Source: Azomonas macrocytogenes
GTDB lineage: Bacteria; Pseudomonadota; Gammaproteobacteria; Pseudomonadales; Pseudomonadaceae
Reading direction: 5' to 3'
NCBI RefSeq assembly: GCF_014191985.1
Contig: NZ_JACHXI010000022.1
Location: forward strand, 1 to 64,000
DNA length: 64,000 nucleotides
Shown: piece after piece, positions 14,042 to 17,842 of the stretch
Layout of the letters: every line of letters begins with the position of its first letter
Position numbering within the stretch: the first letter of the stretch is position 1
The notes under the pieces: model-generated
What the model saw: only the letters and a program-made list of their open reading frames with translations
Databases searched by the model: none
Told to the model about the DNA's origin: nothing
Position numbers and translations under genes: made by a program

Positions 14042-15070
14042 CTACCGAGTCACCTCGAAGCGCAGTATGCCAATCAGCTGTCCTGCTTCGGTGGTTACCC
14101 GCACATGCCATTTGCCTGCCGGGTTTTCGGGAAAGTTGCGTTTATAGCTCCAGGCACGATAACCCGCTTCCCGCCCACCCTTGATATCCAGCGCGATACG
14201 GTCGATCTGCCGGCCTTCGTAAAGCCATTCATGGTAGATCCGCTCCTTAAGTCCGCGTGGAGCGCTGATCGCGGTATAGGCATAGAGTCCGTTCGCTTTG
14301 AGCTGTTTTACCGTCAGCCGGTCGATACTGTCAGCCGGCGCGCGGCCGTGGTTATCCAGATGCATGGTAACCGAGATCTGATTGAGCCTGAGGGTAGCCG
14401 GCGGAACCCAGGTTCGCCCCAGCCATCCTGCTGTTGCAGTGAGGGCGACCAGGCCGACAATTGCCAGCAGGCGGCGCCAGCCCCAATTCGCAAACAGGCC
14501 ACTGAAGCTGGGTAGCGCTAATATCAGGGCTGTCCCCAGGGCGAGGCGATAGCTCTGTGGCGTGGACAGATGAAACACGATCGGCAGGATGGTCAGCAAT
14601 ACCGCAAACAGGGTCAGCGCATGAAAGGCCAGGTACAGCCAGCGTCGTTCTGCCAGCCATTTGTAGTACAGCGGATCGATCACCGAAACCAGCGCTGCAC
14701 AGCCCAGTAACCCGGAAAAAATCGCTTGTCCGCTGTTCCAGGTGGTCGTTACGGTAAAGAACGGGATGACGAAAAACAGGCTTTCCTGGTGAATCACCTG
14801 GGTTGCATAGCGCAACAGTGCGGTTGGCAATTGCCAGCCGAAGCGGCTCAGCAGGAAGCGACGCAGAATATTTTCCAGAGTCAGCCAGAGCCAACTGATC
14901 AGCATGACCAGGGCTACGACCTTTGCCAGCCGCGCCTGGCGTTCCACGAGAAAAAAGCTGGCCACTCCAGAGCAGAAGCCGAAAAGGGCCACGGCTCCGG
15001 GATAGCGGTGCGTCAGCCTGGCGACGATATTCAGTAGTTGGGTCAGACGGTTTTTCCAAGTCAGAAGCAT
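14042..15070 (-). CDS. DUF5924/DUF2914-like integral membrane protein
   Basis: A 342-residue protein with about seven hydrophobic helices in residues 20-220, then a soluble C-terminal domain (about 225-342) that matches my memory of DUF2914: RIYHEWLYEGRQIDRIALDIKGG and PAGKWHVRVTTEAGQLIGILRFEV. The C-terminal domain is predicted to fold as a beta-sandwich outside the membrane. Function is unknown. It lies directly upstream of the mgtC-like gene on the same strand. The name is from motif recall only, not a database search. Confidence 0.75.
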   Translation of the reverse strand: MLLTWKNRLTQLLNIVARLTHRYPGAVALFGFCSGVASFFLVERQARLAKVVALVMLISWLWLTLENILRRFLLSRFGWQLPTALLRYATQVIHQESLFFVIPFFTVTTTWNSGQAIFSGLLGCAALVSVIDPLYYKWLAERRWLYLAFHALTLFAVLLTILPIVFHLSTPQSYRLALGTALILALPSFSGLFANWGWRRLLAIVGLVALTATAGWLGRTWVPPATLRLNQISVTMHLDNHGRAPADSIDRLTVKQLKANGLYAYTAISAPRGLKERIYHEWLYEGRQIDRIALDIKGGREAGYRAWSYKRNFPENPAGKWHVRVTTEAGQLIGILRFEVTR

Positions 15071-15749
15071 GATGGCAAGTTATTCAAATTAGAAAACATT
15101 CATGAAAGCGCGGATCATGGGCTCAAGTTGGATCTTTCGAAAGCGCCTTGGCCAACCAGGCCAGCCTGTTTGGCCTGACAGTGATGGTGAGTGTCGGTTT
15201 TGGCTGGTGCGTTAGGAAAGGCAACTGATCAGATCTGGTTTCCCTGGTTTCGATTGGAGTTATCCAGTTATCCCAGAAGTCTGTGTAGCACCCTGTGGAT
15301 AATCATGGGAAAGGACTTTCCAGGCCTTGCAGCACTAGGCGTTACCGGTGTAGTACAAAAAATGCACACAGAGGATTTGGTCTTTTATCGACCTCCATTC
15401 TGATTCATATGTCAAGTATTTGTGCGTTTTTGCTTGGTGCCATTGATCAAGTGTGAGTTTTCCACGGAATATGTGGAGAGGCCTGTGGATAACCTGGGAG
15501 AAAAGCCAAGCAGTCGTTCATTTGCATAGCCCTGGGCAGTATTGAGCAAAAAGTATTCAATCGCATGGTTTTTCGGATTGCCCCGCAGGGATCCGGCAAA
15601 TGCCGGGATTGAACAGTTGGCCGCGAGACAGGCGGTAGCTGGATTATGAACTGCGACCTTAGTCGGAAGGAACTTCGGTGCGTTGAGCACATCGCTTCTC
15701 GAAGGTACACTCCAAGCCTTATTCAGCACTTGCTTACGGGGAGGCTAGT
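15071..15749. other. 680-bp gene-free region with DnaA-box cluster
   Basis: No convincing coding sequence was found on either strand. Two perfect DnaA boxes on the minus strand (TTATCCACA; plus-strand TGTGGATAA) lie at 15294-15302 and 15484-15492. Weaker relatives sit close by: TTTTCCACG near 15458, TGTGGAGAG at 15472-15480, and two TTATCC copies at 15260-15275. Other structure includes a CCGGC-AAAT-GCCGG hairpin near 15594-15607. The right end holds the promoter of the next gene. No dnaA, rpmH or gidA lies nearby, so this is not the usual oriC. Confidence 0.6.
15683..15711 (+). promoter_or_regulatory. Putative sigma-70 promoter for the PA4642-like gene
   Basis: A -35 like TTGAGC (15683-15688) and a -10 like TACACT (15706-15711) are separated by the ideal 17 bases, 38 bases before the start codon at 15750. 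Sequence match is moderate. Confidence 0.45.
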
Positions 15750-16037
15750 ATGCGTAAAGACAAGAAGCAGGTGATCGGAGAGGAGCTTCCTGATGAAGCG
15801 ATCAAACTATTTCTCCTACCTGAACCTGCTGACGATACCCCTCCTGCGTTACATAAACTTATCAAGGCATATCGGGGTTTGCGTGTGGACGACTTCGCTC
15901 GTTACCTGGAGTTTTTCGTCGCTCAGGGCCTGGATCTGCGCACCAAAAATGCCAAAGGTGAAAGTTTTCTCGACCTGGTCGGCGATCAGCGTCAGGCTGC
16001 GCCTTATGTCGAACTGGTGAAAGCCGCTCGGGCCTGA
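15750..16037 (+). CDS. PA4642 family conserved small protein
   Basis: A 95-residue, acidic N-terminal protein without signal peptide or membrane segment. The pattern (LPDEAIKLFLLPEP, then LIKAYRGLRVDDFARYLEFF, and TKNAKGESFLDLVGDQR) corresponds to the PA4642 family that lies beside malate:quinone oxidoreductase genes in Pseudomonas. The DFxRFLxFF...NxxG...L repeat resembles one ankyrin-like helical hairpin. Function is unknown. A GGGGAGG ribosome-binding site precedes the ATG. mqo follows on the same strand after a 314-bp gap. Confidence 0.8.
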   Translation: MRKDKKQVIGEELPDEAIKLFLLPEPADDTPPALHKLIKAYRGLRVDDFARYLEFFVAQGLDLRTKNAKGESFLDLVGDQRQAAPYVELVKAARA

Positions 16038-16351
16038 TCGATCCTGCATGCTTCTTGATTTGCCAGACAGGAATGACGGTGCTGCCGAGATAATCCGGTA
16101 GCTTCGATGGCCGGTAGGCCGGCTCGAAACGAGAGTCTTGCGATGCGTCCTGCTCGAGTATCGGGTAAAACACCCGCCGAGGTGCGGGCGTGTGGCGATT
16201 CAAGGTGGCCACAAGCCGCCTGGCAGTTGAATCGGAACATCGGTTCCGACTGGTCGGATGATCCGCTTTCTAGAGCGTTCGGCCCATGGTTTCGCGCGCG
16301 CCGCCTACCGCGGTCGCGAAAGTCTTTTGCTGTGTTCTGGGAGAAGCGTTA
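16038..16351. other. 314-bp intergenic region upstream of mqo with several hairpins
   Basis: No gene seen. A hairpin at 16171-16192 is followed by a short T run only when read on the minus strand. On the plus strand CGGAAC-ATCG-GTTCCG (16233-16248) overlaps a second stem, CCGA-CTGG-TCGG (16246-16257), so the two cannot form together. GTGGCCAC is a palindrome at 16205-16212. The region must hold the mqo promoter, and its leader may be structured. Confidence 0.5.
16164..16192 (-). terminator. Possible minus-strand terminator in front of mqo
   Basis: On the minus strand a GC-rich stem (CCCGC with GCGGG) is followed by TGTTTTACC, a terminator-like arrangement. No minus-strand gene reads into it, so either it stops an antisense transcript from the mqo leader or it is a structural element of the plus-strand leader. 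Confidence 0.35.
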
Positions 16352-17842
16352 ATGACGCAAAATAGCGACGCGCTGGATATGGTGCTGGTTGGAGCTGGCA
16401 TCATGAGTGCCACACTTGCGGTATTGCTCAAGGAGCTCGATCCCAGCCTCAGGCTGGAGATCGTGGAAATGCGGGAGGCCGGAGCGACAGAGAGCTCCAA
16501 CCCATGGAACAATGCTGGCACCGGTCACGCTGGACTTTGCGAACTGAATTACACCCCTCAGGCCCAAGACGGTTCCGTCGATATTTCCAAGGCTGTCGTC
16601 ATCAACAGTCAGTTCGAGGTTTCCAAGCAATTCTGGGCTTATATGGTCGGCAAGGAAGGCTTTGGTGACCCGAGCAACTTTATCAATTCGGTCCCTCACC
16701 TGAGTTTCGTTCGCGGCGACAAGGATATCGAGTACCTCAAGAAGCGCCACGAGCTACTCAGCGCTCACCATGCCTTTGCCGATATGGTTTATTCGGAAGA
16801 TCGCGCCACTATCGCCGACTGGGTACCGTTGATGATGCCGGGGCGTGATGCCGATGAGCACATTGCCGCTACGCGTTCCATGCGAGGAACTGATGTCAAC
16901 TTCGGTGCCCTGACCAACCAGTTGCTGAAGTATCTGGCTGCCCAGCCAGGTGTAACAGTGACTTTCAATAGCAAAGTGACAGGGCTACAGCGTACTGGTG
17001 ACAGTTGGCAGGTTGAAGTCAAGAACCTCAATAGCGTACAGACCCGCCAGCTCGATACCCGGTTCGTCTTCCTTGGCGCCGGTGGTGGTGCGCTACCCCT
17101 GTTGCAGATATCCGGTATCGAAGAGGGCAAGGGATTCGGTGGTTTCCCTGTCAGCGGCCAATGGCTGCGCTGCGACAATCCGGACGTGGTGAGCAAGCAC
17201 CAAGCCAAGGTGTACAGCCAGGCCGAGGTCGGAGCTCCGCCAATGTCGGTACCGCATCTTGACACCCGCGTGGTCGATGGCAAGAAGTCGCTATTGTTCG
17301 GGCCTTATGCCGGTTTCACTACCAAATTCCTCAAATACGGTTCGATGGCGGATCTGCCTCTATCGATCCGCCTGGGCAATATCAAGCCGATACTATCTGT
17401 AGCCCGCGATAACATGGATCTGACTCGTTATCTGATCCGTGAGGTAATGCAGTCGATGGACGAACGTCTGGCCAGCCTGCGCAAGTTCTATCCCGAGGCG
17501 AAAGCCGAGGACTGGCGCCTCGAGGTTGCTGGTCAGCGAGTCCAGATCATCAAGAAAGACGAGAAGAAAGGCGGTGTTCTGCAGTTCGGGACTGAGCTGG
17601 TTGCGTCGAAAGACGGCTCCATCGCCGCTTTGCTCGGTGCATCCCCCGGCGCCTCCGTTACTGTTCCGATCATGCTCAACCTGATCGAACGTTGCTTCGC
17701 CGACAAGATTGCCACTGATGACTGGAAAGCCAAGCTCGGCGAGATCTTCCAGGCTCGCGAGAAAGCCCTGCAGACCGATGCCGAAACCTATCGCAAGGTA
17801 AGCGCCGAATCCGGTAAGCGCCTGGGGCTGACTGCTGCCTGA
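16352..17842 (+). CDS. mqo: Malate:quinone oxidoreductase
   Basis: FAD-dependent peripheral membrane enzyme that oxidises malate to oxaloacetate and reduces quinone, linking the TCA cycle to respiration. From the ATG at 16352 (MTQNSDALD) it has 496 residues, the normal length. The FAD-binding N-terminus is [17 protein letters not shown], followed by the Mqo-typical [23 protein letters not shown]. The segment [15 protein letters not shown] and the C-terminal [11 protein letters not shown] also fit. An in-frame extension to 16286 lacks similarity, and GGGAGAAG precedes the chosen start. A terminator follows the gene. Confidence 0.96.

Follow-up and report, generated by a model that had tools for sequence, protein, structure and literature searches.

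What DnaA would do at a pair of perfect DnaA boxes in a gap between two genes is the question raised by this locus of Azomonas macrocytogenes. An earlier note on this DNA had offered three answers, namely a DnaA reservoir of the datA type, a DnaA-reactivating site, and regulation of the adjacent genes. The whole stretch analysed, 64,000 nucleotides of contig C22, is referred to here as the window, and the named relatives of its genes point to a Pseudomonadaceae genome. Within the window, the box TTATCCACA occurs exactly twice, at 15294-15302 and 15484-15492, both on the minus strand and 190 bp apart, just as the note had reported. Its view that such a pair is unlikely by chance was borne out by shuffling, which gave a mean of 0.26 copies, with two or more copies anywhere in the window in 2 of 100 shuffles. 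When one mismatch was allowed, 9 matches were found against 8.5 expected, so by simple counting the exact pair alone is unusual. The gap of about 680 bp indeed runs from the start of a DUF5924 gene (15070, minus strand) to the next gene (15750, plus strand), and it is overlapped by a 105-aa ORF on the minus strand (15412-15729) that has no Pfam match. An Rfam search of 14900-16400 gave no match up to E = 1. The gene order around the site is mqo, orf95, the twin box clusters, DUF5924, MgtC, sfsA and aminotransferase, with the following flanking genes:

14042-15070, minus strand: DUF5924/DUF2914 gene (Pfam), left flank, with MgtC beyond.
15750-16037, plus strand: ORF of 95 aa (orf95), right flank, no Pfam match.
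16286-17842: mqo (malate:quinone oxidoreductase), after orf95.

Each copy of TTATCCACA was found to be the outer box of a three-box cluster of 35 bp with the spacing 9-3-9-5-9, in which one box opposes the other two. Read on the plus strand, the right cluster is TTTTCCACG-GAATA-TGTGGAGAG-GCC-TGTGGATAA (15458-15492) and the left cluster is TTATCCCAG-AAGTC-TGTGTAGCA-CCC-TGTGGATAA (15268-15302). The box relatives that the earlier note had placed nearby, TTTTCCACG at 15458, TGTGGAGAG at 15472 and two copies of TTATCC at 15260 and 15268, are present at those places and turn out to be parts of the same triads, with TTTTCCACG and TGTGGAGAG forming boxes I and II of the right cluster and one TTATCC beginning box I of the left. 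The middle and opposing boxes are imperfect, with two mismatches each in unit 1 and three each in unit 2. Both units stand in tandem and in the same orientation, and the GC-rich arms between triad and palindrome are clearer in unit 2. The features are as follows:

15458-15558, minus strand: unit 1, DARS-type triad with Fis-type palindrome (profile R2 match at 15458-15561, 37.9 bits; nhmmer, 35.3 bits).
15484-15492, minus strand: unit 1 outer box (DARS box III position), TTATCCACA, exact.
15472-15480, minus strand: unit 1 middle box (DARS box II position), CTCTCCACA, separated from the outer box by 3 bp.
15458-15466, plus strand: unit 1 opposing box (DARS box I position), TTTTCCACG, head to head with the middle box across a 5-bp gap.
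15544-15558, minus strand: unit 1 Fis-type palindrome, GAATACTTTTTGCTC, with 51 bp between it and the triad (Fis consensus as given in passages of PMC6907758 and PMC10380432).
15267-15368, minus strand: unit 2, DARS-type triad with GC-rich arms and Fis-type palindrome (R2, 44.6 bits, E 1.3e-12; nhmmer, 44.2 bits).
15294-15302, minus strand: unit 2 outer box (box III position), TTATCCACA, exact.
15282-15290, minus strand: unit 2 middle box (box II position), TGCTACACA.
15268-15276, plus strand: unit 2 opposing box (box I position), TTATCCCAG.
15353-15367, minus strand: unit 2 Fis-type palindrome, GTGCATTTTTTGTAC, with 50 bp between it and the triad.
15322-15342, minus strand: unit 2 GC-rich arms, ACGCC at 15338-15342 and GGCCT at 15322-15326, similar to the consensus AGGCC-N11-GGCCT.
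15410-15422, plus strand: IHF-like site between the units, TGTCAAGTATTTG, with one mismatch, which may be chance (about 0.39 one-mismatch sites are expected in a stretch of such size at the window average).

The specificity of the 3 and 5 bp gaps was assessed with the strict pattern TTATCCACA-CCACA-TGKGNNNAA, searched in 119 family genomes while each gap was allowed to vary (1-7 and 2-8 bp, 49 combinations). The results of this search showed 52 matches (39 distinct) in 31 of the 119 genomes, 51 of the 52 with gaps of 3 and 5 bp, while the reversed-pattern control gave no match in the same 119 genomes. The strict pattern has no match in the A. macrocytogenes genome itself, because its middle and opposing boxes are weaker. 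Loci fetched solely for holding a box pair gave a similar picture: CACA stands at offset 17 in 26 of 54 paired anchors, the next most frequent offset having 3, and TGTG stands at offset 26 in 26 of 54, the next most frequent having 4.

On reading the spacers between triads, we found a palindrome of the form GNNYRNNWNNYRNNC. Across 83 distinct twin spacers (those of the window and of a second twin on contig C2 included), it lies exactly 50 bp before the triad that follows in 68 cases and 51 bp before it in 3, and is absent in 12; in 300 spacer shuffles, any 25-bp band held at most 13 palindromes per 83 spacers. The same was seen across 131 triads anchored on an exact box, whose loci had all been fetched prior to the discovery of the palindrome: it stands at 50 bp in 96 and at 51 bp in 10 (106 of 131). 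Base counts made over these 131 triads without any motif revealed G at -65 in 123 and C at -51 in 121, together with GC-rich arms near -40 to -36 (AGGCC) and -24 to -20 (GGCCT). Among 121 exact-box anchors that fell below the triad thresholds, 17 still have the palindrome at 50 bp, and we read these as weaker triads.

The Fis consensus is given as GNTYAAAWTTTRANC in a passage of PMC6907758 and as GnnYAnnnnnTRnnC in one of PMC10380432, and a footprinted Fis site of P. putida, TGGATCAAAAATGAAACAAT (passage of PMC5612765), resembles the palindromes found here. The units carry a Fis consensus at a nearly fixed place, with a spacing to the triad unlike that of DARS2, and these palindromes are candidate Fis sites predicted from sequence. 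As a conserved partner, IHF is possible but unsupported: sites with at most one mismatch are absent in 4 of 9 other clusters and vary in place in the other 5, the window holding a single one-mismatch site and the C2 twin (locus L113) an exact consensus between its triads. These observations bear on the datA-like reading of the earlier note; a site of this kind would stimulate DnaA to hydrolyse its bound ATP once initiation has taken place. The presence of DnaA boxes where no gene lies and of a one-mismatch IHF-like site between the units agrees with such a role. However, the essential boxes of datA share one direction around an IHF site (passage of PMC5742627), whereas box I is inverted here and the IHF-like matches have no constant place, and we regard this reading as highly improbable.

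Two profiles were built, neither with rows from the A. macrocytogenes genome: R1 covers the triad only (52 of 59 triads, alignment A2), and R2 covers 106 bp (81 of 99 units, alignment A3, selected for a palindrome at 50 bp). In the A. macrocytogenes genome, R1 ranked the right cluster best (E 6.0e-5), followed by one C2 unit (1.5e-4) and the left cluster (8.1e-4). R2 gave four matches at E up to 0.01 among the best 26 of 1219 first-look candidates, and these are both window units and both C2 units (the latter with 50.6 and 38.4 bits). Given that the E-values are rough, coming from a short calibration, a separate random-sequence null was run. An nhmmer profile made from the R2 rows scored 44.2 and 35.3 bits at the window units and 8.3 at the next window match, and the top score in 200 Markov windows (12.8 Mb of random sequence) was 11.6 bits. 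After removal of 11 rows from seven loci of the same genus or the same site, with the remaining rows of genus g15 kept in, the window units scored 42.1 and 34.5 bits. The triad part of the profile alone gave 30.9 and 23.9 bits at the right places in the window; the palindrome part alone (5.9 bits) and the middle part alone (7.2 bits; best window match 15307-15343, E 0.91) were weak at the window units.

An exact scan of the whole genome (4.09 Mb, 70 contigs) found 35 copies of TTATCCACA versus 14 for the reversed-pattern control. Outside the dnaA region on contig C5, two exact copies within 250 bp occur at three places, which are the window gap, C2:265490/265700 and C30:20008/20022 (an inverted pair, 5 bp apart). 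When 30 of the 35 boxes were examined, four proved to be the outer box of a triad (the window pair, C2:265490 and C2:265700), and C21:60608 fits as a middle box. The C2 units form a second twin at C2:265466-265777 (L113 6467-6778), between yigZ (UPF0029) and add (adenosine deaminase); twins adjoin yigZ-like genes also in L116 (genus g14), L213 (g15) and L230 (same genus).

Two further places in this genome deserve mention. C21:60608-60616 (L026) belongs to a possible further DARS-type core, TTGTCCACC-3-TTATCCACA-5-TGTGGATTT, whose middle box is perfect, like that of E. coli DARS1; the boxes of this core have 2, 0 and 2 mismatches, no strict palindrome stands at 50 bp, R1 gives 12.6 bits (E 0.74), and the core is not among the R2 matches listed for this genome. 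C30:20008-20030 (L115 12009-12031), near a contig end, is a perfect palindrome TTATCCACA-aaatt-TGTGGATAA, in which the two boxes stand head to head with a 5-bp gap and no good third box.

Clustered DnaA boxes might also mark a second replication origin or its relic. In Pseudomonadaceae, oriC adjoins dnaA, and here dnaA with its nearby boxes lies on C5, not on the window contig C22. Eight exact copies of TTATCCACA, some within ORFs and none a triad by our thresholds, occur in about 12 kb around dnaA (L114 467-12879), beside genes that we take to be gyrB, recF, dnaN, yidC and mnmE, and C5 has no R2 match at E up to 0.01 among the genome-wide matches listed. No replication-initiator gene was recognised among the flanking genes scanned in the window, in agreement with the earlier note. 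An origin at this place is the least probable of all the readings considered, and we give it next to no credence.

Comparison across relatives showed units kept at the same site in some of them. Direct DNA similarity to the gap is nearly absent, being found in 2 of 57 genomes, namely the A. macrocytogenes genome itself and one with a 47-bp match. The 1 kb upstream of orf95 contains TTATCCACA in 3 of 80 named relatives and two copies in none, and a SulP gene lies upstream of orf95 in 61 of the 80 within the DNA examined. R1 detected triads upstream of orf95 in three of these 80 loci, with two matches each in L046 and L056 and one partial match in L058; the other 77 have no triad in the DNA examined, which reaches at most 2.5 kb upstream. 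As for the same genus, G001 and G002 have no orf95 match, and G001, G002 and G003 have neither a DUF5924 match nor the exact box pair. The order in G003 (L056 contig, MAG CSMAG_1280) is mqo, orf95, SulP, two triads (one with an imperfect outer box), DUF2726, MgtC, sfsA and aminotransferase, and that in G017 is mqo, orf95, SulP, SDR, triads, DUF2726, DUF5924 and MgtC. Stutzerimonas stutzeri TS44 (L046) has a twin with a 190-bp period beyond SulP. Little is alignable between the clusters at the corresponding site besides the boxes. Of the DUF5924 loci in 14 relatives, three have triads (L158, L159, L160) and 11 have none by our thresholds, so the site is not kept beside DUF5924 family-wide.

These arrangements speak to the third proposal of the earlier note, here taken as control of DUF5924 and orf95, the divergent neighbours, by DnaA and Fis. 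In favour of such control, both proteins also regulate transcription, and the units lie about 190-200 bp from both start codons. Yet the neighbours at the corresponding site in relatives are SulP, SDR or DUF2726, and other units adjoin yigZ and add, azurin and a TetR regulator, or a Rieske oxygenase gene. Since the units are retained despite these differences in neighbouring genes, we disfavour regulation of the adjacent genes and consider it quite implausible; the simplest reading, from few genomes, is that selection acts on the units and not on a neighbour's promoter.

Larger arrays were observed as well. Four units in tandem are present in genus g14 (L125 5889-6438 and L210 4790-5328), with a similar array in L117 (6083-6642), and the L125 and L210 arrays adjoin the Rieske oxygenase gene, presumably gbcA-like. 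The four-box clusters of g14 were also considered as oriC and rejected, given this position of L125 and L210 and a distance of about 0.5 Mb from dnaA for the clusters of G070 and G262. L178 (G045:C69) contains a unit array whose period alternates between 112 and 201-206 bp.

At E up to 0.01, R2 matched 147 of 148 family genomes (139 of 139 good ones, 19 of 19 genera), several of which had supplied training rows. Matching family genomes have 2 to at least 26 matches each, many of them 10 to at least 26; these counts come from the best 26 first-look candidates per genome under stricter filters, and weak matches may be lost. The positions of 67 family loci on the chromosome arm range from 0 to 1, with a slight excess between 0.1 and 0.6, and no fixed distance from dnaA was found among them (most genome lengths being rounded to 0.1 Mb). 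In a class-wide sample, with the best 14 first-look candidates per genome and E up to 0.001, R2 matched 182 of 274 genomes, mostly 1-3 times each, or 180 of 272 without the two family members in the sample. Twenty loci from distant matches, a biased set taken from the best matches of a palindrome-containing profile, were read, and several hold near-perfect triads, for example TTATCCACAAAGTTATCCACAGGTTTTGTGGATAA, with the palindrome at 50 bp. When these loci were searched by the triad part alone, 31 matches were obtained, 20 of them with the palindrome at 49-51 bp, and the proportion is 19 of 22 for outer boxes with at most two mismatches.

The high copy number in many pseudomonads suits the main rival explanation, a passive DnaA reservoir, in which the boxes would merely titrate DnaA and Fis would modulate access, with no nucleotide exchange; DnaA titration on the E. 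coli chromosome has been reported (passage of PMC12371093). However, titration requires no fixed 3/5 spacing, no inverted box and no palindrome at a fixed 50 bp, and plain scattered boxes would presumably suffice. We thus hold a passive reservoir to be unlikely, while giving it more weight than any other alternative.

The remaining proposal of the earlier note, a DnaA-reactivating site, is supported by the number, orientation and spacing of the boxes, which are those of DARS1 and DARS2, and by the match of the relatives' profile to DARS1. On the architecture described above, the gap probably holds two tandem Fis-coupled DARS in the same orientation, whose function would be to regenerate ATP-DnaA. 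According to passages of PMC5742627, PMC8682772 and PMC10380432, ADP-DnaA molecules bound to boxes I and II of the E. coli DARS make head-to-head contact and thereby lose ADP, with assistance from Fis and DNA bending, and because of this work we propose the same mechanism here. ADP-DnaA would bind boxes I and II head to head, with box III occupied alongside, and Fis, abundant in fast growth, would bind and bend the flank from the 50-bp arm so that the DnaA molecules touch. ADP would then be released, and apo-DnaA would depart and take up ATP, becoming able to fire oriC. The tandem pair would raise local dosage, and the window site together with the yigZ-add twin would set the supply of ATP-DnaA and hence the timing of initiation.

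The units offer a precise and testable pseudomonad element, with exact boxes, spacings and a predicted Fis dependence, which, if true, would tie initiation to growth phase; and the R2 matches in 182 of 274 gammaproteobacterial genomes provide a means to map candidate DARS where none is annotated. Sequences like DARS1 and DARS2 are stated to be conserved in many proteobacterial species in a passage of PMC10380432, which cites another paper for it, so the occurrence of DARS beyond E. coli is by itself no novelty. Among the matches listed for literature on Pseudomonas with DARS, datA or DnaA boxes, titles and abstract openings contain no description of DARS in pseudomonads, and the passages of the DARS and Fis literature contain none of a palindrome at a fixed 50 bp or of such tandem units.

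The closest known systems are the E. coli sites, examined here in MG1655 (NC_000913). The DARS1 core (813107-813141) is TTATCCACT-5-TGTGGATAA-3-TGTGTATTA; we take DARS1 to lie in the bioD-uvrB gap, and three boxes were found in that gap, which supports the placement. The DARS2 core (2969135-2969169) is TTATTCACC-5-TGTGGATAG-3-TGTGAAGAA, so assigned because published primers replacing boxes I-III flank it (passage of PMC4585315). Box I opposes boxes II and III with equal spacing in DARS1 and DARS2 (passage of PMC5742627), and the three boxes, their order, orientations and gaps (9-5-9-3-9) are the same as in both window units. The DARS2 region has a second triad-like 5/3 arrangement 316 bp from the core (L206 2952-2986; NC_000913 2969451-2969485), with an opposing box TTATCCCAG identical to that of window unit 2 and a weak outer box.

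R2 aligns to DARS1 without gaps over model positions 22-106, covering the triad and flank and not the palindrome (24.9 bits), and R1 reports no match to DARS1; a 42-bp stretch beside the last box is reported to be required for full DARS1 activity (passage of PMC4585315). In DARS1, a Fis consensus is lacking at 50 bp from box III, whereas the window units have their palindrome at 50 or 51 bp; the middle box is perfect in DARS1, while in the window the outer box is perfect and two units stand in tandem. A match to DARS1 without the palindrome fits the statement in PMC4245941 that DARS2, unlike DARS1, needs trans-acting activators. Fis sites are part of DARS2 and required for its activity (passages of PMC4245941 and PMC8682772). 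In DARS2, however, 110 bp separate the core from the closest Fis consensus on the box III side, and IHF (IBS1-2) is also essential, whereas units of the window type have no IHF site at a constant place. R1 finds the DARS2 core weakly (11.2 bits), and R2 gives no clear match in the DARS2 region (10.4 bits, elsewhere than the core). The resemblance to datA is that of a non-coding DnaA-box cluster, from which both window units differ in box directions, each having an opposing box, and in the IHF site.

In view of the class-wide R2 matches, the two E. coli sites may be reduced or rebuilt forms of the element. Tentatively, and with somewhat less than even confidence, we speculate that a composite of about 105 bp, made up of Fis palindrome, 50-bp GC-repeat arm and DARS triad, might be the ancestral form of gammaproteobacterial DnaA reactivation, of which DARS1 would have lost the Fis half and DARS2 would have been rebuilt with IHF, while pseudomonads would use dispersed, often tandem arrays in which recharging depends on how many Fis-gated units there are and where on the chromosome they lie.
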